A stretch of 26,155 nucleotides of DNA from a virus, in IMG/VR virus record IMGVR_UViG_3300030110_002073, positions 1 to 26,155 of that record. One strand, written 5' to 3'. This document shows, in pieces, positions 10,025 through 22,262 of the stretch. The notes under the pieces were generated by a model that was given only the letters and a program-made list of their open reading frames with translations, made no database searches and had not been told where the DNA came from. Both the position numbers and the translations under genes were made by a program. Positions within the stretch are counted from its first letter, which is position 1, and every line of letters starts with the position of its first letter.

Positions 10025-10837
10025 CTAAACCAAATCCGATGGCATTGTGTAACCTATAGATGACGCGCCACTTGGTTGAGGAGCAGTTGAAGTTGTATTA
10101 AATGCGCCGCTTGCTAAACCAGAACCTACTATACTTGCTACATTACCAATTGCACCGGTTATTGCAGCTGCTTGTGCTTGATTAGCAGAAGCTTGTTGAG
10201 CTTGTGCTTGACTGATTTGACCAGACACCCTATCAAGATCTGCATTAATTCTATTTTCTTGAACTTGAAACTCAAATTGTTTACCAGCAGCTTCAGCTGT
10301 TTGAAGTCTTTTTGCTTCAGCCATTTTAAGCTGCATAAGCTGTTGCTCGCCTTGAGCTCTAATTTTTTCATTTGCAGCTTCTTGTTGTTCTATATTTGCT
10401 GCAACTTGTTTCTTACTAGATAAAGCAGCTTGAGCAAGCGCAGTAGCACCACCAGCACTAGCACCTGTAGCTCTAAGAGTATCTAATGTATTTGCTAAAG
10501 CAATATCACTCTGCTCCATTTGTATTTCTGCTGCTTGAGTTGCAACACCCATTTTTTCAAACGGGTTACTTAACATACCACTTAGATCAGTTACGTTTTC
10601 ATAAGGATTTACTATTTCTTGTCTTTCTGAAAGTATTTGATTTAGCTGAGCTTCTTTTCTTCTTTTTTCTTTCTCAGCTTTTCTAGCGGCTCTTTTAGCT
10701 TTACTAGCTCCAAATAATCCACCAATTAAATTTACACCAGCAGACACAGCGGCTACAGCTAAAGCTGATGCATTAGTTAAATATGGTATTTCTGGTCCAT
10801 ATACTATGTTGTTTAATATTTCTAATAAGTATTCCAT
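10025..10837 (-). CDS. Internal virion / pilot-type protein with hydrophobic ends and coiled coil, 270 aa
   Basis: This protein has a hydrophobic, Gly/Ala-rich segment at about residues 24-44, then a strongly basic stretch (about 45-62). A long Gln/Ala/Glu-rich coiled coil runs from roughly 100 to 225, and a second Gly/Ala hydrophobic segment lies at 226-245. The tail is Ser/Pro/Thr-rich. This layout, with a small membrane-tropic segment, basic patch and Ala/Gln coiled coil, is typical of podovirus internal virion or DNA-ejection proteins (T7 gp14-like in style; no sequence homology is claimed). The gene starts three bases after the stop of the upstream gene and is followed by the 530-residue putative internal protein. 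The likely role is helping build the trans-envelope channel or guiding the genome out. The function is inferred from composition and position. Confidence 0.65.
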   Translation of the reverse strand: MEYLLEILNNIVYGPEIPYLTNASALAVAAVSAGVNLIGGLFGASKAKRAARKAEKEKRRKEAQLNQILSERQEIVNPYENVTDLSGMLSNPFEKMGVATQAAEIQMEQSDIALANTLDTLRATGASAGGATALAQAALSSKKQVAANIEQQEAANEKIRAQGEQQLMQLKMAEAKRLQTAEAAGKQFEFQVQENRINADLDRVSGQISQAQAQQASANQAQAAAITGAIGNVASIVGSGLASGAFNTTSTAPQPSGASSIGYTMPSDLV

Positions 10838-10840
10838 AAT

Positions 10841-12328
10841 TTAATATGATGATTCTGTATAATTAGATGATACTGCGAATAATTCTTTTAATCCACCTGG
10901 ATCTGTAGTGTCATCTGTTGATACCGTTACTGTAGCAAAGAAACCTTTTATACCTGTCATTTGATCACCAAATCTAACCTCACCTTGTGCTGCGGTGCTG
11001 TTATTAACTAGGTTAGCTACATATTTATTTTCTTTTCTATTGAAACCAGCTCTCTGTCTTGTGTGACCTGGGTTGCTAGTTCCAAATACTGATTCATAAT
11101 CTGCTGGTACAACAGCTTGATTATTAGTTGGGTTTATTATATATTCACCTTCAACATAGCTATATACAATAGTTGTTGAATCACTTGTGCTACCATAGAA
11201 CCCGTTTAATTCATCTTCACCTGTAACACCTGATTGAAAGTTTGTAACTTCCCAACCATTACTACCTTCGTAATTAATAGTTTTAAAGTTTTTAACAAGA
11301 CTTACATTAGGGTTAAATATAAATGTAATTGTTGTTGGATAGTCTGCTCCATAAAATCTACCACGATTAACATCAGGAGAATAATGAAGATACAACTGAC
11401 TGTTGTACATTGTGTACATATTATTCTTCAGACTAAATACATGTGTAGGTTCAAAATCAAAAAAACTAACCCAGCCTCTTACTGTTTCATCGTAAGCTAA
11501 TGTATTGTAACCACCTTCTGTAGCAGCTGACTGTGTAGATACTACATATTGTTTATTGTGAGCGTCCCAACCACTAACAACTTTACCATCGCTTGTAGTA
11601 TTCATAGCTACAAACTCATCTCTAAAGTAATCATACATACCATATTCAGATATTTCTGTAATACCATCACGTGATAATCTTAATACAGCATTTCTATTTC
11701 TATCAGTAAAGTATTTTCTATATCCATAAACAGCAAAGCTTTGTGGATCCGTGCTAATACCATACTCACCAGCGTAAGGAACTATTTGACCTATAACTAA
11801 GTTTAATTGACTAACAGGTGTTGCTGTGCCTTCAGCAGTGTAAATCGCGTCTTTGTCAATCAACGCTCTGTTAACTTTGTTTTCTTGGAATATAATTAAG
11901 TTAGTATTTTCAGCATAAAGCTTTTGTATTGAACCTCTAGAAGGATCTACAGACCTAGTAATATCTTCACCTACAGAAAACACATTTGTATCATTAATAC
12001 CTGTTCTAGAGTTATATATGCCAGAGTATATAAGAGTGTTAAATAAATTAGATGAGTTAGGTTCTTCTTCAACTAAGTAAGCTCTTACACCGTAATCTAC
12101 ACTTGTATTATTAAATCCACCTCTTATTCTAGCTTCTTCAATAGCCCAAACACTACTATTATAATTTGATGAATCATCACTAAAAGCAGGATAACCACCT
12201 AAACTTACTGGTATACCAAACGAACCGTTATAAACTGGTGCGTGTGTAGAAACTCCATGCGTACGGGTCTTACTAAGCTTCTTTAAAATAAAAGAGTTAA
12301 AATACTTTATTTCTATTACTGCTCCCAT
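10841..12328 (-). CDS. Tail/neck stabilization-associated structural protein, 495 aa
   Basis: A soluble, beta-rich protein with no signal peptide. Many Tyr, Asn, Thr and Gly residues occur in short repeating strand-turn units (for example SRTGINDTNVFSVGEDITRS near residues 107-126), which suggests a beta-propeller or similar fold. I recognise the general pattern (YFNSF near the start, a block with VNRALIDKDAIYTAEG, and GYRKYFTDRNRNAVLRLSRDG) as one that accompanies gp10-like stabilization proteins in podovirus-like phages of Bacteroidetes, though I cannot confirm this by search. It begins 22 bases downstream of the 1289-residue gene. It probably forms part of the tail hub or closure complex below the neck. 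Residues from about 370 onward include Asn/Thr-rich loops that may be exposed. Confidence is high that it is a virion protein, moderate on the exact position. Confidence 0.7.
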   Translation of the reverse strand: MGAVIEIKYFNSFILKKLSKTRTHGVSTHAPVYNGSFGIPVSLGGYPAFSDDSSNYNSSVWAIEEARIRGGFNNTSVDYGVRAYLVEEEPNSSNLFNTLIYSGIYNSRTGINDTNVFSVGEDITRSVDPSRGSIQKLYAENTNLIIFQENKVNRALIDKDAIYTAEGTATPVSQLNLVIGQIVPYAGEYGISTDPQSFAVYGYRKYFTDRNRNAVLRLSRDGITEISEYGMYDYFRDEFVAMNTTSDGKVVSGWDAHNKQYVVSTQSAATEGGYNTLAYDETVRGWVSFFDFEPTHVFSLKNNMYTMYNSQLYLHYSPDVNRGRFYGADYPTTITFIFNPNVSLVKNFKTINYEGSNGWEVTNFQSGVTGEDELNGFYGSTSDSTTIVYSYVEGEYIINPTNNQAVVPADYESVFGTSNPGHTRQRAGFNRKENKYVANLVNNSTAAQGEVRFGDQMTGIKGFFATVTVSTDDTTDPGGLKELFAVSSNYTESSY

Positions 12329-12350: not shown

Positions 12351-15300
12351 TTAAATTACTGTATATAACACGCTTTCTGCGCTATAATTTACATCTGCAC
12401 CTTGAGCTGATATACTACTATATCCTTGAGTTCGAAGACATGATTTAAATAATGCTATTGCTGTACCTTGTAAATTAGTATCATAATACAAACTACCACA
12501 AGTGTTTTGATTTTGTACAACTTCATTAAATGTTATAACAACATTTGAATTACCATTATCGGTTAAATCATTCCAAGATCCATCATAAACATAAAACCCA
12601 GGGTGATCTCCATCGTTTATTTGCAACACAACAGCTGGAAATATGTATTCAACCTCAACACCACCTACAGTTCTAAATGCTGAAAAATCACGTTGAAAAA
12701 CATTTACTACAGTTGTTCCATATTGTAATGTTATAATTACTTCATCTTGTTCACCAGTACCACCAGCATCTGTACATCTAACTTTAAGGTTATAAGTATC
12801 AGGTGGTAATGTACTACCTCTTAAATTATTAACAGAACATGTAGATGTATCTGTTGAAGAATCGTAGTTAAATTCTAAACCAAAATAAGGATAGTTTAAT
12901 GGATCACTAGGTCTAGGCCCAACGTTTTCACCAGATGAACTTGTTTGACTACCTATTATCCAGTCTATATCTCTACCTTCATTTAAGTTGTCAGGATTAT
13001 AAGCACCATTTATAGCTTTCATTTCGGTTACAGGATTAGCATCTGTTATACTAGCAACCACTGTATATGGAGCGCTACCACTTCCACTAGCTGGAGCTGT
13101 CATTGTTGGCGCTACATTTATTAATAAAGCTTCTCTAGATATATTTGTTGTAGAATCATTTACACCAACTTGTAAAGTAAAGTCAAATTCTCTAACTTCT
13201 GGAGCGCTACCATAAAATACATTTTCTAAAAATGCTGTAGTTGTTTGTATATTGTAACCAGTTGTATTATCACCAACTAAAGTAAAGTAAGCACTAGATA
13301 CATCTAATAAACCTTCACCAGCTACTTTTAAAGGCGTTGGTGATTGTCTATTAAAACAAGAAACTATTTTTAATGCACTAGTAATATCACCTGTAGGTAT
13401 AGTTGCACTAAAGTTATCTATTAAAAAGAAATTACTTGCTAATATGTTTTCACTTGAATTTAAAGCTTCTGTAAAAGTAGATGTATCAAAACTATTTATA
13501 TTAGCTGCAGAATTATTTGAGTTTAAAATAATAGTATTTAAATCTGATATTAAACCACTTGTACTAGTTTCATAATATATATCTAGTCTAGATTCAACAG
13601 GCTCTGTTTCTAATATAGTTAAATTATTAACAATATCATATGTAGAAAAACCTGTGTTTTCTGTGTTTATAACGCCAAATTGTTCAGCCGCAACATTACT
13701 AGTAACAAGCTCACCAATAAATGGATCTGATTCAGCTTTAAAAAACGCGTGATAAGGATAAGAGTCATCAGTTACATCAGGTAAAGAAAGAGTAAACATA
13801 TCATTTAAAGGCTCTATATTACTTGTTGTAAAATCTCTTCGGTCTGGATAATATTGATCACTACCAATATTAGAATAAGCTATAGTATTATTTTCTACTC
13901 TACCAAATAATTTAATAGAACTTCTAAACGTTCTATCTTGCGGCCCAACTTCTGTTAAATCTCTAGGTACTTTATTTATATTATCATTTATTAAAGTTAT
14001 AAAAGAGTTCTCTTGATTAGCAGGAGGTGCAGGTGTATAATCAACATCACCTTTTAAAGCCCCAGCAGTATATACATTATAATATTCTTGCTCTTGTTGT
14101 TTAACAACTATTTTAAATGAATACCAACCAAGTGGATTATAATCATCACTTGTTGTATCTCCGTTGTATAAACCTGGCCAACCTGTAGCTGAGTTTGCTT
14201 CAGCTGGTCCTATAACACTATTAAAAGACATTTTAAGTGAATTACCAGGCCATGTTATTACGTTTACATCTGTATCTATATATGGAGAATATATACTATC
14301 TCCTTTAAAAGTATCTGAACCAACAGTAATAGTATCTTCATTTTCACTTAATATAACGGAAGAAGTTCTACCATATCTGTCAGATAATACTACACCGACT
14401 TGATAATTTCTATTTGTTTTTAAAGAGTGACTAGGATATTCTATTATACTAGTTGTTTGTTCTATTTCTTCTTCAAGTGTAAAATTATAAGTTGTATCTG
14501 TTGTTTGTGTAACTGCATTTGTAACCGTTATTGTAGGTGATAAACCACCTGTTGTAGAAGTTACAATTGTATCTGTACCTGATATTGTTCCACCTGTCAT
14601 TACACTGCCAACAGCAATAGTTCCTGTTGCTAGTTTTATATTAATAACAGTGTCACCAGTTGGACGATCACTAACGTATCCAGTACCATTTTTTAAATCA
14701 AAAGCACTTTTTTCAGTAGCTATCACATTGTAGTCTAAAAATGCTGGTGGAGTGTGTTTATCTTGAAAATTACCATAAACAACTCTATTGCTAATTATTT
14801 CTTGTGATAAAGCTTTTACTGGTATTTTATCATAAACTCTTATTAAATCTTTTTGAGGTAATGTTTTAAAAGGTAGCTGACCTGAATATGTATAAGGTAA
14901 AATATAATTGCTACTAGCTAATGACGCTATGTCGTCTGCAGGTATGGTTTCTACAACTTTTAAAGATGTTCCATCAGATTCTTTATATATAATCTCAACA
15001 TTTTTAATCTTAAAGTCATCAACAAAATTATTACCAGTACTAGGTAGTGGTATGCTTAATTTTATTTCATTAACTTTGTTTTCCATAAACTCTACAATTG
15101 TAGAATTAAATGTTAGTTGTTGATCTCCTACACCGTCTGTAGCTGCGGTACCTGATTGGCTTTGATTTAAGAAATAACCATCTTGCTTAGGTATAAAACA
15201 TGCTTGAGTAAATGGAGCTATTAAAGAGTATTCACCATCATCAAACTCAAATCTATAGCTAAACCTAACAAATTTATCCTCTAAAAAATCATCATCACCA

Positions 15301-16220
15301 GCATAGTTTGGATCATAATAAGGATTAGCATTAAAAACTAATTCGTCACCAGCTGTTAAAGTTTGAGACGTTGTTAAAGTTACAGACGATGAACCACCTG
15401 CGGTAACCGGATTATCAGTATCGTCTATTGTACCACTAGCAGATACAACTCCAACTGTCATTCCAGCTTGTGGAACATTTGGTGAAGCAGCTGCTTGCGC
15501 ATTAGGATAAAAAGGTATGTTTAAAGTATTTAAAGCAAAAACAGTACCAGTGCTTGTAGCGTTAACGATAGCAGTTCCACCGCCAGGTAGAAACTTACTG
15601 GTTACATCTTTCATTGAACACTGGTAATCACCTAATGCGCTAGGTGATGCAACCTTAGCTGTTTCATAAAGCTCTATTGCTTGAAATGGATTATATTTTG
15701 CTACAGATATTTGATCTTCATTTGTATAATAAGAAGAGTTAGCAGCCGCTTTAGTTATGTTTATTTTTCTTGGCTGATTTCTATTATCAGTCCAAAACAA
15801 CATATCTTCTAATAAATTAACTGCTATTATAGGAAAGTGTGTTGAAAAGTTTAAAAAAGCACCTTCAACTAATTTTGTTTTAACTTCAGTCTTTACATTG
15901 TATCTCCATATAGAGTGTCTTAATAAACCACTAACCGGACCTTTTACCCAATTAGTTGTAAAATTATCTGTTAAAAACACGTATATATTATTGTTAGTTT
16001 CATCAACAAAATAACCTATAGATGTCATATTGTTTTGGAAAAGATTAAACTCAGTTAACAACTTGTTACCTAAAACATTAGTTAACGCGCCTACATCGTC
16101 ACCTTCAGATCTACTTATCTGAGCGTTTTGAGCATCTCTATATTCACCTGATGGAAGCAACCTAGCATCTAGGTCTTTATTCATCTTAGACTTTAGAAAA
16201 GCATTTTTAACTTCAGCCAT
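12351..16220 (-). CDS. P22 gp10-like packaged-DNA stabilization / tail hub protein with extra beta modules, 1289 aa
   Basis: The N-terminus (KMNKDLDARLLPSGEYRDAQ at residues 12-31, then ISRSEGDDVGALTNVLGN) matches the pattern I know from the gp10-like stabilization proteins of P22-type and crAss-like phages, which form a beta-propeller-like hub closing the neck after packaging. The body is beta-rich to about residue 870. Two Gly/Thr/Val-rich inserts interrupt it: residues about 215-298 (with GMTVG...TLTAGDELVF) and 518-582 (with TGTIAVGSVMTGGTISGTD). Residues about 1035-1170 look like an immunoglobulin- or cadherin-like domain (DTYNLKVRCTDAGGTGEQDE), followed by a cysteine-containing C-terminal region. 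It is unusually long for the family, so the extra modules are probably surface displays or receptor-contact domains. It starts two bases after the preceding stop. The core assignment is fairly secure; the roles of the inserts are inferred. Confidence 0.8.
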   Translation of the reverse strand: MAEVKNAFLKSKMNKDLDARLLPSGEYRDAQNAQISRSEGDDVGALTNVLGNKLLTEFNLFQNNMTSIGYFVDETNNNIYVFLTDNFTTNWVKGPVSGLLRHSIWRYNVKTEVKTKLVEGAFLNFSTHFPIIAVNLLEDMLFWTDNRNQPRKINITKAAANSSYYTNEDQISVAKYNPFQAIELYETAKVASPSALGDYQCSMKDVTSKFLPGGGTAIVNATSTGTVFALNTLNIPFYPNAQAAASPNVPQAGMTVGVVSASGTIDDTDNPVTAGGSSSVTLTTSQTLTAGDELVFNANPYYDPNYAGDDDFLEDKFVRFSYRFEFDDGEYSLIAPFTQACFIPKQDGYFLNQSQSGTAATDGVGDQQLTFNSTIVEFMENKVNEIKLSIPLPSTGNNFVDDFKIKNVEIIYKESDGTSLKVVETIPADDIASLASSNYILPYTYSGQLPFKTLPQKDLIRVYDKIPVKALSQEIISNRVVYGNFQDKHTPPAFLDYNVIATEKSAFDLKNGTGYVSDRPTGDTVINIKLATGTIAVGSVMTGGTISGTDTIVTSTTGGLSPTITVTNAVTQTTDTTYNFTLEEEIEQTTSIIEYPSHSLKTNRNYQVGVVLSDRYGRTSSVILSENEDTITVGSDTFKGDSIYSPYIDTDVNVITWPGNSLKMSFNSVIGPAEANSATGWPGLYNGDTTSDDYNPLGWYSFKIVVKQQEQEYYNVYTAGALKGDVDYTPAPPANQENSFITLINDNINKVPRDLTEVGPQDRTFRSSIKLFGRVENNTIAYSNIGSDQYYPDRRDFTTSNIEPLNDMFTLSLPDVTDDSYPYHAFFKAESDPFIGELVTSNVAAEQFGVINTENTGFSTYDIVNNLTILETEPVESRLDIYYETSTSGLISDLNTIILNSNNSAANINSFDTSTFTEALNSSENILASNFFLIDNFSATIPTGDITSALKIVSCFNRQSPTPLKVAGEGLLDVSSAYFTLVGDNTTGYNIQTTTAFLENVFYGSAPEVREFDFTLQVGVNDSTTNISREALLINVAPTMTAPASGSGSAPYTVVASITDANPVTEMKAINGAYNPDNLNEGRDIDWIIGSQTSSSGENVGPRPSDPLNYPYFGLEFNYDSSTDTSTCSVNNLRGSTLPPDTYNLKVRCTDAGGTGEQDEVIITLQYGTTVVNVFQRDFSAFRTVGGVEVEYIFPAVVLQINDGDHPGFYVYDGSWNDLTDNGNSNVVITFNEVVQNQNTCGSLYYDTNLQGTAIALFKSCLRTQGYSSISAQGADVNYSAESVLYTVI

Positions 16221-16222
16221 AT

Positions 16223-17440
16223 TTAATGTTTAATCCATTTAGATTTGTTACGCATTATCTGTACAAACTCATTTAGTTTAATATTAGATAAACGTATCTT
16301 AGCGTTTCTAAGTTTAGCGCTTCTTTCTTTTTTTAATCTTTGTACAATATATTCTGGCTGACCTATTCTTGTGGATATAATAGCGTGTAGTATATGCGCG
16401 TACATTGCTTCTTCAGCAAGCTTAGGTACTTTAGTATCTAAATCTACAGCTAAGCCATCAGATATATATTCAAATATAATTAACTTATCAACTAAATCGT
16501 TTGAAAAAGATATTTTACCTTCTCTTTGATTTATATGCCAGTAACCATTTACATTAGCATATTGAGGATCTAATCCATACATTTGACCATATCCAAAAAA
16601 TGGAAAGTCATAGTTGTAATAAAAAGAAGCTAATACAGTGTCGTCAATTAAATCTTTTGTTAATCTATTTTTTAAGTCGTTATCTTTCCATCTTTTTTCT
16701 ACTAGAGAAGTAGATTCTAGATTATTACCATAACCATCTTGAGTAGCTACACCATCACCGTCTTGTATTGGTAGTTCATAAGGGCTTGATGTTAAAGTCG
16801 TAGCTGGCATTATAATATGCTTAGCACCTTGATCATCAACCCAATATATGTTAACATAATTAACATAATCTTGTGGAAGCGGTATACTTAAATTATGTGG
16901 TATGTTTAATTCTTGAGACTTAATACTTCTAAGTGTATCATAACTAAACTCTTGTAAACCACGCTTAGCATGAAATACTACATCAGTTCTTTTTACATCT
17001 CTAACTAATTTATCAGCACCAACATATGCTACTAAAAAGTTATTTACAACTTCGTTTAACTTTATATAAGCATAACTACCGTAGTTTTCTTCAACAGTAT
17101 TACCATAAGCTTTATCAGCGGCGGTGCTACCATAATTTCCACCATCTAATTTTTTAAGTTGCACAACTATATTGTTGTCACTTGCAGGTGCAGAAGTAAA
17201 TGTAATTACATTACCAGAAACAGTATAACCACTTGTTGTTTCACTCCAACTACCAGCGGCTCCAGTCGCGCTTTGGTATAATTTAAAATTATTTTTACCG
17301 TAATCCGGATCTGTACTAGAAGCGGCAAACCAAGCTAGATCTGTTTCAAAAGTTGTAGTAAAAGAAGTTGTACTTCCATCACCTAAAAAGCCTTGAGCGC
17401 CTTCGTAATATTGTCTATTGTTTTCTGTTGAGTAAGCCAT
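16223..17440 (-). CDS. Neck/adaptor virion protein with an extra N-terminal beta domain, 405 aa
   Basis: The C-terminal three quarters (from about residue 125) contain an adaptor-like core with VVNNFLVAYVG, KRTDVVFHAKRGLQEFSYD, a loop with IPLPQDYVNYV and a basic helical C-terminus (residues 365-405). The order after the capsid genes and before the gp10-like hub fits a head-to-tail connector or tail tubular protein. Residues about 15-96 form a separate domain: GDGSTTSFTTTF, an aromatic stretch, then YTVSGNVITFTSAPASDNNI. This is the strand pattern of a small beta-sandwich common at the start of phage tail fibres (T7 gp17 N-terminal-like in style). That domain appears inserted between the initial MAYS segment and the core. 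The gene starts three bases after the preceding stop and has no Shine-Dalgarno. The core role is likely; the function of the extra domain is inferred. Confidence 0.72.
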   Translation of the reverse strand: MAYSTENNRQYYEGAQGFLGDGSTTSFTTTFETDLAWFAASSTDPDYGKNNFKLYQSATGAAGSWSETTSGYTVSGNVITFTSAPASDNNIVVQLKKLDGGNYGSTAADKAYGNTVEENYGSYAYIKLNEVVNNFLVAYVGADKLVRDVKRTDVVFHAKRGLQEFSYDTLRSIKSQELNIPHNLSIPLPQDYVNYVNIYWVDDQGAKHIIMPATTLTSSPYELPIQDGDGVATQDGYGNNLESTSLVEKRWKDNDLKNRLTKDLIDDTVLASFYYNYDFPFFGYGQMYGLDPQYANVNGYWHINQREGKISFSNDLVDKLIIFEYISDGLAVDLDTKVPKLAEEAMYAHILHAIISTRIGQPEYIVQRLKKERSAKLRNAKIRLSNIKLNEFVQIMRNKSKWIKH

Positions 17441-17443
17441 CTA

Positions 17444-18649
17444 TTAACTTTTTGAATTTATTTCTTCAGTTTGAACTGCTTGTGCAGCTGCTTGAACAAT
17501 TTGTGGATCTCTTATTACAACTCCAGCATAAGCTAATATTCTCATTATAACTTCGTTTTGCTCTGACGGGTGAAGTTCAAATTGTGTTGATGCTGAAGCA
17601 TTATAAAGATATTGATTTAATCCGCCAACAGTAAAACCCCAAACAACACTAGCGGGTTTTCTTATATAAGAAACCTTAATATCTGAAGCTGTAGTTATAC
17701 TTGTCGGGTATACATAGATATGTGGTATACCGGTATCATTACCAGAAGTTCCTTGAGTAGCTCTTTCGTATATGTATATAGGATAATCAGTTGTTGGTTT
17801 AGTTAGTCGAGACATGTTAATGTGAAGAAAATCGTCTCTATCAACTCTTTGAAGCTCTAATTCGTCTTTATATATTACAGTACCTATTCTATGTAGGTCT
17901 GAAGGTGGTAAAAAATAAAGCTGTGAGTTTATTAAGTTTACTGTTGCTGTAGCGTTTGCGTTACCAGTTAAAACAGTTATTGTGTCGTTCAATGAATAAG
18001 CTGAACCGCCGTTATTTACAGTGACACTAGATATAACACCATTACTATCAGATGTTAAAGTTATTGTTCCATCTACATTTCCAGCATTAACAGTTAGCAC
18101 TTCTCCATTTGAATAACCAGTTCCTGGAGTATTTATGCTAATTGATACTATTGCGCCAGTAGAAGAGTTTACTGAGTTTATGTTTACTGTTAAACCTACG
18201 CCAGAACCACCTGTAACACCTACGTTGGACGCAGCAGAGTAACCAGTTCCAGCAGCACTTAAAGTAAATGTTGGATTTGTTATATTTGTATCTACAGTTA
18301 GACCGGTTCCAGTACCACCTGAAGTTGATACATTATTAGCAGCTGTATAACCAGTACCACCACTAGTTAAGGTTACACCATTTACTACACCAACTGGTAC
18401 CACTGTAGTATTACCAATTGTTTTAAATATAGAAATACAATTATCTATATTTTTTCTACGGTTAGCGTACTCGCTTTCCGTTTGCGGCACACGTAACTGC
18501 TGGTTTAAATCTTCAAAATAATTTTCAAATACATCTAGCTGTACTTGTGTAGCTAGTTTGTTAAACTCATCTGGTGTTATATAACCTCTCTGTTCCTTAT
18601 TAAGAATAGACAGTACCGTTGTGTAAACAGTATTTACGTTTATTGCCAT
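17444..18649 (-). CDS. Head-tail adaptor protein interrupted by four GTGYS-type repeats, 401 aa
   Basis: Residues 1-80 are helical (NTVYTTVLSILNKEQRGYIT, then DEFNKLATQVQLDVFENYFE), and residues 243-401 continue with a mixed fold (LYFLPPSDLHRIGTVIYKDE, KVSYIRKPASVVWGF, then a helical C-terminus with FELHPSEQNEVIMRILAYAG). Together these look like one connector-type protein placed where podoviruses keep head-tail adaptors. Between them, residues about 88-242 consist of four imperfect repeats of about 39 residues, each with a GTGYS-like core (the last reads GSAYS) followed by a valine/threonine strand pair. The repeats look like a beta-solenoid or sandwich array grafted into a loop. The gene follows a 57-base gap holding a hairpin. 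The adaptor role rests on position and pattern; repeat function is unknown, with surface binding plausible. Confidence 0.72.
   Translation of the reverse strand: MAINVNTVYTTVLSILNKEQRGYITPDEFNKLATQVQLDVFENYFEDLNQQLRVPQTESEYANRRKNIDNCISIFKTIGNTTVVPVGVVNGVTLTSGGTGYTAANNVSTSGGTGTGLTVDTNITNPTFTLSAAGTGYSAASNVGVTGGSGVGLTVNINSVNSSTGAIVSISINTPGTGYSNGEVLTVNAGNVDGTITLTSDSNGVISSVTVNNGGSAYSLNDTITVLTGNANATATVNLINSQLYFLPPSDLHRIGTVIYKDELELQRVDRDDFLHINMSRLTKPTTDYPIYIYERATQGTSGNDTGIPHIYVYPTSITTASDIKVSYIRKPASVVWGFTVGGLNQYLYNASASTQFELHPSEQNEVIMRILAYAGVVIRDPQIVQAAAQAVQTEEINSKS
17924..18388 (-). repeat. Four diverged protein-coding repeats of about 37-40 codons (GTGYS repeats)
   Basis: Within the adaptor gene, four units can be laid out by their cores: SGGTGYTAANNVSTSGGTGT (unit 1, residues 88-124), AAGTGYSAASNVGVTGGSGV (unit 2, 125-164), TPGTGYSNGEVLTV (unit 3, 165-203) and NGGSAYSLNDTITV (unit 4, 204-242). 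Units 1 and 2 are closest to each other. At the DNA level the units have diverged, so this is not a fresh duplication. The array ends just before the adaptor fold resumes at LYFLPPSDL. Confidence 0.85.
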
Positions 18650-21065: not shown

Positions 21066-22262
21066 TTATTTAAAATTTCTTTTTTTAATTTTCAGTTTTG
21101 AAGAATCAAGTCCACTTATAGATTTAACTTTTAAACCACCAACAAACACATCACTTGGAACCGTCTTACGAGGTTCAGTTGATATATTTTTTGATTTAGC
21201 CATTATGTCTTTAGTAGCATCTGCTTTACCTTGCTCATAAAAATGTTGAGCAATAGTATCAGCATTTCTAGCTGCATACAAAGCTTTGTGATAGCCTTGA
21301 TAATCACTAACATTTCCTTGTTTATCTAGGAACTTCCCTATGAAATTAGAAATATCTGATTGTTTTTCAGCTACTTGTTTAGGATTTTTAATACCATATC
21401 TAAACTTTGAATCACCGACATTGAAATCAAAACCTTTGAAATCGTCACTTAAAAAGTTATTTGTTTTAGATAAAAAATCCTTATGTCTTTGTTCTGCAAC
21501 ACGTTGATCTTCGTTATATCTATTGAAAAAGTCTAAAGCTTTTTGTTGTTCTTGATTTACGCCTGGTCTCAACTTGATCTCATCGTAGTATTTAGTTTTC
21601 AATCCCTCTAAAAAGTTTTTAGCTTTTGCAACTTCTTCTTTAAACGCAATTTTCTTTTTGCGTACATCTTTTGGTTCATCTAATTCTTCATCATATGAAA
21701 AGTCTTCTAATAAAAGACTTACATCTTCAGAATCAAGATGTGGTTTAGTTTGCTTATAATATTCTCTGATTAATGTATTATTATCTACATTTGTATAATC
21801 AGCATTTAATCTAGCGTAATCTTCGATAGTACCACCAGTTTCTTCCATAAATGAAACTAGTTTTTCAATATTTTCTGGTAGTTGTTTCTGTTCAACAACT
21901 GTTTCAACTTTTGGTTGTTCAACTTTTTCTTCTACTTTTTCTTCTTCATCAACCTCAATAAGAGTAATAGGTGATTCTATTTCTTCTTCGGTGGGCCGTA
22001 TTTCTTCAACCACTCCTTCGCTGTTGCTATTGTCTTTGGATTCTTCGACAACAACATCGCTATCATTTGTCTCTTGTGCTTGAACGGCATTGTCTTCGTT
22101 TTTAATTACTACTCTAGTTACTTCTTGTTCTGGTAAATCAACTAATGGTTCTTTTAAATTAACTTTAACAGGTTCGTTAGAAGCTTTACCTAATTGTTTT
22201 GGTTTGGTTTTTTTACCTTTCAAAGTAAATTCACCTTCTTTTTTTGTTGCTTTTTCAGCCAT
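21066..22262 (-). CDS. Capsid scaffold protein, 398 aa
   Basis: The N-terminal 30 residues are Lys-rich. Residues about 40-130 are very acidic and low in complexity (Glu, Val, Pro, Asp, with EEEKVEEKVEQ near 106-116), and the rest is mostly charged helix (to about residue 330). The C-terminus is basic (KLKIKKRN at the end). An acidic, helical, coiled-coil-prone protein with a basic C-terminus located between portal and capsid protein is the classical internal scaffold, where the basic tail contacts the capsid shell. There is no visible protease fused to it. It starts 33 bases after the portal stop, and the capsid gene begins 16 bases past its own stop. The role is inferred from position and composition. 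Confidence 0.78.
   Translation of the reverse strand: MAEKATKKEGEFTLKGKKTKPKQLGKASNEPVKVNLKEPLVDLPEQEVTRVVIKNEDNAVQAQETNDSDVVVEESKDNSNSEGVVEEIRPTEEEIESPITLIEVDEEEKVEEKVEQPKVETVVEQKQLPENIEKLVSFMEETGGTIEDYARLNADYTNVDNNTLIREYYKQTKPHLDSEDVSLLLEDFSYDEELDEPKDVRKKKIAFKEEVAKAKNFLEGLKTKYYDEIKLRPGVNQEQQKALDFFNRYNEDQRVAEQRHKDFLSKTNNFLSDDFKGFDFNVGDSKFRYGIKNPKQVAEKQSDISNFIGKFLDKQGNVSDYQGYHKALYAARNADTIAQHFYEQGKADATKDIMAKSKNISTEPRKTVPSDVFVGGLKVKSISGLDSSKLKIKKRNFK

Follow-up and report, generated by a model that had tools for sequence, protein, structure and literature searches.

A crAss-like tail ring protein of a marine phage with a loop insert predicted to form nested β-barrels resembling T4 gp18 domain I

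Introduction

Why should a protein that probably builds the neck of a phage tail be interrupted by a long stretch of glycine- and tyrosine-bearing repeats, and what might such a stretch do there? The question is raised by a ring gene of a marine phage, carried by a stretch of viral DNA of 26,155 nucleotides (IMG/VR record IMGVR_UViG_3300030110_002073; hereafter the window). An original prediction, made from the sequence alone, placed four imperfect repeats at positions 17924-18388, which correspond to residues 88-242 of the encoded protein. It pictured them as a β unit grafted into a head-tail adaptor, whose fold would stop at residue 81 and resume at 243, and as forming a collar of possibly sugar- or surface-binding domains at the neck. 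Here, we examine the carrier protein, the limits and architecture of the insert, its occurrence among relatives, its kinship and its probable role.

Results

The carrier is a predicted ring protein of the tail barrel

The 401-residue protein is encoded between a 272-aa and a 405-aa gene (Table 1). Family phrog_14543 matches its residues 1-76, and residues 1-245 of L020, a relative without the insert. In the AlphaFold2 model of the full protein (57 sequences; pLDDT 83.2, pTM 0.60), the closest solved fold found by VIA is chain 7qoj_E of phicrAss001 (Z 12.6 over 208 residues; Foldseek E 3.3e-5), that is, ring protein 4/5 or gp34; chain 7qoj_D of the same structure is ring protein 3, gp35. The next-best VIA matches are adaptors, namely those of Pa223 (Z 9.5), A4 (8.8), GP4 (8.5) and SU10 (7z47_B, 8.0). 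By VIA and Foldseek, both the helical bundle and the β domain of the ring/adaptor fold are present. Likeness in sequence is barely detectable: hhalign of the insert-free ring profile against phicrAss001 Gp34 gave a probability of 6.4 over 19 columns, and sequence searches of the PDB gave nothing useful, with best E values of 0.47 for the whole protein and 0.65 for the insert-free profile.

The neighbourhood points the same way. The 272-aa upstream gene is related to phicrAss001 Gp33 (hhalign probability 80), which also precedes Gp34 in that phage, and the ring gene lies in a block that runs from the terminase large subunit (TerL) through portal, virion structural genes and ring to a gene with a crAss_MUZ domain. 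Maribacter phage Panino has the same gene order, with a ring gene of 230 aa that lacks the insert. Judging from the modelled fold, we identify the 401-aa protein as a subunit of a crAss-like tail-barrel ring (head-tail adaptor), which agrees with the adaptor-type identity originally proposed.

Table 1. Features of the window that bear on the ring protein and its insert
Feature	Position	Strand	Residues or size	Evidence
Tail-barrel ring/head-tail adaptor protein with insert (predicted)	17444..18649	-	401 aa	ORF, phrog_14543, fold match
Ring body, N-terminal helical part	18407..18649	-	1-81	helices H5-19, H26-51, H58-73; conserved in aligned relatives
Whole insert, predicted as two nested six-stranded β-barrels	17921..18406	-	~82-243	edges from insert-free relatives; insert-alone model
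Unit 1 (type α), outer barrel first half (predicted)	18275..18385	-	89-125	module HMM 2-39 on residues 90-127
Units 2+3 (α2β3), complete inner barrel (predicted)	18035..18274	-	126-205	module HMM 2-74 on residues 126-201; VIA
Unit 4 (type β), outer barrel second half (predicted)	17921..18034	-	206-243	module HMM 35-76 on residues 201-242
Ring body, β domain and C-terminal helices	17447..17920 (stop codon excluded)	-	244-401	model, alignment of relatives
Terminase large subunit			478-aa ORF, open at window edge	phrog_6681
Portal protein				P22_portal, phrog_6547
Capsid-type structural gene				phrog_13704
Muzzle gene, downstream of ring	12351-16220	-	1289 aa	crAss_MUZ domain
Post-muzzle gene	10841-12328	-		

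Some other genes of the window deserve mention. The muzzle gene and the gene that follows it match positions 1-184 and 918-1221, respectively, of phrog_14478, perhaps because the muzzle is split or because the profile joins two genes. Two minus-strand genes (21066-22262 and 10025-10837) have no PHROG match at E 0.01; the first separates the portal gene from the capsid-type gene, an arrangement shared with Panino.

The insert is modelled as a separate β unit

Relatives without the insert (241-258 aa) align end to end around it and set its edges at about residues 82 and 244, in the turn just past the helical bundle, where the β domain starts. At this place they show a short turn and read '..IFKTIGNTTYNGAG-GYFLPPSDLHRIGTVIYKDE..'; the sequence across the turn is IFKTIGNTTY-NGAG-GYFLPPSDLHRIGTVIYKDE, and the GTGY insert takes the place of the few turn residues. 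The predicted interruption of the ring fold was thus located almost exactly, and the alignment makes clear that only some relatives carry the region. Two of them, L014 with a two-unit insert and L020 with none, have bodies that are 96% identical at the protein level; their DNA differs at this point by a single clean in-frame block of 240 bp, at which flanking BLAST alignments of 85-88% identity stop and restart.

The insert (162 residues) contains no Trp, no Lys or Arg and only five Asp/Glu. It bears four G-x-[GNSA]-Y motifs, at residues 98, 134, 176 and 215, a number reached in none of 20,000 shuffles of its own letters. Repeats are weak in its DNA, which places the repetition at the protein level. 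No Pfam family, including carbohydrate-binding, lectin and Ig-like ones, matched the window insert at E values up to 10 (within HMMER filters and the limits of the library). Modelled alone with AlphaFold2, the insert reached a pLDDT of 94.4 (over 93 in each of five models) and a pTM of 0.77, and folded as an all-β structure of 12 strands, three per unit, and no helix. In agreement with the earlier proposal of a distinct β unit, the model and the existence of relatives without the insert portray it as a separate all-β unit and not as an integral part of the ring fold.

One predicted barrel inside another

The four repeats foreseen are there as motifs, but they are not arranged in tandem. Two halves of the module HMM flank a full module (Table 1). 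VIA alignments to gp18 residues 97-186 cover residues 124-201 in the full model and residues 42-118 of the insert modelled alone, and matches of about 73 aligned residues span insert residues 42-119 or 4-160, which correspond to the inner barrel and to the pair of outer halves, respectively. Units 1 and 2 are alike, as are units 3 and 4 (z 10.8 and 5.9 against shuffles, with 0 of 500 reaching the observed score), whereas the four remaining pairings show little similarity (z 1.7-2.7). On these three grounds we read the modelled insert as paired units, α1[α2β3]β4, in which one six-stranded barrel sits inside another; for the same three we reject a tandem array of four equal repeats. The two-unit inserts (L014, L153 and L188) have the composition αβ and correspond to a single barrel.

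A ring loop that gains and loses modules

Three scans of viral contigs, seeded by conserved peptides (best 80 per scan, many shared), gave, with the window copy (L081), at least 190 loci; since the scans were seeded and bounded in this manner, the fractions of inserts given below are not natural frequencies. A ring ORF was found in 182 of 190 loci (the others being L036, L054, L081, L134, L161, L162, L168 and L181). These yielded 154 distinct ORFs, and 152 were classified after leaving out the short L135 and L151. With L140 reassigned, 108 have no insert, 27 an unrelated β insert, 12 a four-unit and five a two-unit GTGY insert. Among the last five, L154 has a frame break and is in fact a four-unit copy, so that 13 four-unit and four two-unit inserts is the fairer count; the break in this ring gene (L154:4001-5279) follows the insert and may be a sequencing error or real. 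With identical copies included, 131 of the 179 classified loci from the best 80 per scan lack an insert.

The unrelated β insert, here called type B, enters about 10 residues further on, after an -FxLP- strand, which means that GTGY and B modules occupy neighbouring loops rather than the same bond. Two rings (L157 and L169) have inserts of about 160 aa made of a B-type end and a further β-looking stretch. As far as can be judged, these sequences mark the ring loop as a hotspot of insertion, in which no fewer than two unrelated kinds of β module occur.

The tree was built from 149 ring bodies, with the insert region excluded and L140, L154 and L184 removed, by a quick method that left 44 of 144 inner branches open. 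On it, the four insert states require at least 10 changes and GTGY presence alone requires five. All GTGY forms in this tree except L188 fall in one clade of 25 rows (12 four-unit, three two-unit, 10 without insert; support 99).

The 405-aa gene next to the ring (16223-17440, minus strand) encodes near its N-terminus a β domain some 95 residues long (~12-105) that is absent from its homologues in Panino (290 aa) and L153 (304 aa) and is related to the B inserts found in the rings of other relatives (hhalign probability 87). By these comparisons, it appears to be a second removable decoration beside the ring insert.

Likeness to sheath domains

By VIA, the five highest-ranking solved matches of the insert come without exception from domain I of T4-type sheaths (Z 4.9-6.1, 73-75 residues, 2.6-2.9 Å), headed by gp18 chain 3foa_C (Z 6.1, 2.7 Å, 74 aligned residues). 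Unrelated EF-Tu-like barrels come next, at Z 4.4 and below (EF-Tu domain 3 about 4), and a Z near 6 can reflect a common barrel arrangement. Foldseek of the insert alone gave no significant match (best E 0.85); because it returned no E value under 0.8, the match to gp18 is taken from the VIA alignment. An hhalign comparison of the two-unit module profile with T4-type gp18 domain I reached a probability of 75.9 and an E of 2.3e-5, over only 20 columns around a P-G-S-N-Y motif, against a probability of 0.0 for a neighbouring gp18 control segment. Kinship is opposed by a disagreement over the first gp18 motif, which the profile places opposite a β unit and the structural alignment opposite an α unit. 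The Pfam family of this domain, PF22639 (Gp18_dom_I), did not match the window insert even at E 10, and L188 matched it at E 0.058. Domain I is described as containing an α-helix (PMC3004832), which the insert model lacks; for this reason we say that the insert resembles domain I and do not class it as a member.

The ring insert also matches sheaths of the cyanophage type. The four-unit form aligned with five cyanophage-type sheaths (S-CAM1, S-CAM3, L215, L216 and L219) at an hhalign E of 4.1e-31 over 150 columns, and the module HMM finds the same α[αβ]β layout in the sheath domain of S-CAM1 and S-CAM3. At the level of profiles, the ring insert and the four-unit stretch of these sheaths are the same domain.

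GTGY modules were also seen in other phage proteins (L218, in a 416-aa ORF at 2509, L223, L225-L227, L232, L221 and L224), whose carriers, by eye, are sheath-like, a two-module muzzle, a two-module connector-like short protein and fibre-like. Contigs assigned to metagenome-assembled genomes (L235-L238; titles Deltaproteobacteria, Bacteroidales, Euryarchaeota and Dependentiae) encode them as well, with as many as three consecutive modules in L235. PHROG matches named 'head closure Hc2' were set aside as proof of neck decoration, because the neck label 'gp14' of the cyanophage match H71 was given to a protein of some 2400 aa and gp14 of S-CAM1 has, by eye, no module.

GTGY modules elsewhere on the same tail

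Among 112 loci with a muzzle ORF of at least 800 aa, the module is on the ring only in eight (the window included), on the muzzle only in 11, on both in none and on neither in 93, the last including L015, whose weak ring module is missed by the HMM, and L017/L018. When the flanks were extended, a muzzle of at least 900 aa was present in 46 of 64 loci (complete in 44), and the corresponding numbers were four, eight, none and 34, the last again including L254, which is L015. In the clade of the window, no phage has GTGY modules on both ring and muzzle, and most relatives without a ring module have one on the muzzle. Four of these (L259, L260, L262 and L263) also bear it in a post-muzzle protein of 675-692 aa; L270/L271, likewise ring-minus, have two there (ORF at 13632). 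Such module-bearing post-muzzle proteins are some 170-210 aa longer than that of the window, which has no module there, as is the case for the other ring-plus relatives (576 aa in L254). L297 has a module on the muzzle and none on the post-muzzle protein, and L256/L257 have none at any of the places examined. The test of ring/muzzle alternation gave p 1, with related rows and only two or three independent contrasts that cannot reach significance, and we regard the alternation as a pattern in these sequences, not a result. The letters GTGY that the window muzzle shows at residue 511 were rejected as a module, the module HMM having no match there.

Discussion

The insert probably faces outward

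In phicrAss001, the ring is reported to be a dodecamer and the barrel to hold five rings in about 23 nm, with constrictions below 50 Å (PMC10172136). Twelve inserts require about 224,000 cubic Å, whereas a channel segment 50 Å wide and 46 Å high, with sizes taken from that account, offers about 90,000; a lumen of 80 Å would hold them (about 231,000 cubic Å). In SU10, the fibre-dock loops of the adaptor are described as protruding radially and holding the long tail fibres (PMC9509320). The excess volume, the narrow constrictions and the radial loops of SU10 make it likely that the insert faces outward, on a ring geometry borrowed from phicrAss001. The collar of surface domains at the neck that had been imagined is compatible with this most likely position. 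That decoration is not usually expected there was too strong a statement, since the adaptors of T7 and KP32, like that of SU10, are reported to carry fibre-dock domains (PMC9509320).

A probable contact surface on the tail exterior

We favour, with a probability of roughly 0.68, the reading that a crAss-like ring carries a mobile, nested surface module of the gp18 domain-I type that points outward and offers an exterior contact surface, most specifically a rest or dock for fibres. The turn after the helical bundle would have been filled by such a module and, in the lineage of the window, the module would in turn harbour another copy of its own kind, so that one barrel is set into another. With a dodecameric ring as described for phicrAss001, 24 barrels would project around the tail barrel, outside the DNA channel and the ring-ring contacts. 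Tail fibres may rest or dock on them, as retracted T4 fibres are described to do on gp18 domain I, which projects outward, has no gp18-gp18 contacts in that description and binds both the baseplate and the retracted long tail fibres (PMC3004832). The substitutions G106S, S175F and A178V in gp18 reportedly inhibit fibre retraction (PMC3004832); G106 should be the first glycine of the P-G-S-N-Y motif, because only numbering without the initial Met fits the three positions.

An accessory contact surface on the exterior is thus the best supported role, and a parking site for tail fibres is perhaps its specific form, by analogy with gp18. Two things single out fibre parking or docking as the most specific reading: among the accounts consulted, no other reading has an experimental precedent, and the adaptor of SU10 docks fibres. 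The presence of one module on ring, muzzle, sheath and other proteins speaks against a single specific fibre partner. In close relatives, such a module is either missing or mounted on other proteins of the tail, suggesting a movable outer attachment part rather than core machinery of the tail.

The wide range of exposed carriers makes weak adhesion a close second. The barrels may weakly bind polymers of the host surface or the extracellular space, and their 24 copies would lend the avidity to keep a virion near the cell. A module that sits on many unrelated exposed proteins and shifts between tail proteins is what one expects if only exposure matters, and a published account proposes adhesion as a role of additional sheath domains (PMC9230969). 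The absence of a match to carbohydrate-binding Pfam families, of Trp and of Lys/Arg counts against it, and the sugar binding suggested at the outset finds no backing in these features or in the few acidic residues. The closest studied fold, gp18 domain I, is described as binding tail fibres and baseplate (PMC3004832). On balance, adhesion is a tentative alternative to the exterior contact surface with fibre docking.

A further and rather doubtful idea is that of a relocatable tail module, whose presence on the exterior would outweigh the identity of its carrier. It would sit on the ring or on the muzzle and post-muzzle proteins, never on ring and muzzle together, and perform a single function from interchangeable sites, be it the parking of fibres or adhesion; gp18 domain I of T4 would then be an old captured copy. 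Similarly unlikely, and slightly more so, is a structural spacer or stabiliser, which would stiffen the barrel by packing on its neighbours or on the muzzle and bind nothing outside. Rigid barrels of low charge would suit it, and gp18 domain I is described as also contacting the baseplate, but the same account gives it no gp18-gp18 contacts (PMC3004832), the 131 of 179 classified loci lack the insert, and the close pair L014/L020 differs at this place by the insert alone. Scarcely credible is an integral part of the ring fold, ruled out by the insert-free relatives, or chance low-complexity sequence without a domain, which has the look of the sequence in its favour and against it the majority of relatives without insert, the regular motifs beyond the reach of shuffling and the confident insert-alone model.

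Significance and comparison with known systems

Rings, barrels and optional decorations are each of known kinds. In a limited search of the open-access literature, covering titles and abstract openings, we found no description of nested GTGY barrels at a ring-loop hotspot or of a link between this marine repeat and gp18 domain I. The finding ties a widespread, unnamed repeat of marine phages to a domain that has been solved and studied genetically, and through this tie the role of the repeat becomes testable. It also locates precisely a site prone to insertions on the ring protein from which crAss-like tails are built, and points to a natural instance of one barrel inserted in another. Should further genomes bear out the alternation of ring and muzzle, phage tails would carry exchangeable exterior modules that are free in their exact mounting point.

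The closest known counterparts of the carrier are gp34 and gp35 of phicrAss001 (ring protein 4/5 and ring protein 3), which share the ring fold and a syntenic place after the major capsid protein and a gp33-like gene; unlike the window protein, they have no such insert (238 and 230 aa). SU10 gp11, and similarly the adaptors of T7 and KP32, also bear extra exposed elements on a matching ring/adaptor fold, as described. The dock loops of SU10 belong to the adaptor itself, whereas the window insert would be a foreign module, and the comparison does not imply the same loop.

Sheaths offer the nearest parallels for the insert. Contractile sheaths with extra Ig-like or β domains are reported to show optional exposed domains on a conserved core (PMC9230969), in another carrier protein and of another kind, since the window insert is modelled as six-stranded barrels and matches no Ig family. 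T4 gp18 domain I is likewise a six-stranded β-barrel inserted in a tail protein, and the P-G-S-N-Y motif at its start resembles GTGY; it consists of one barrel with an α-helix on a contractile sheath, whereas the window has two predicted nested barrels, free of helix, on the ring of a short tail. The tail sheaths of the T4-like cyanophages S-CAM1 and S-CAM3 carry the same four-unit GTGY domain in the same nested layout, there in the middle of a contractile sheath protein (residues 200-363) and in a different phage group with a different host.
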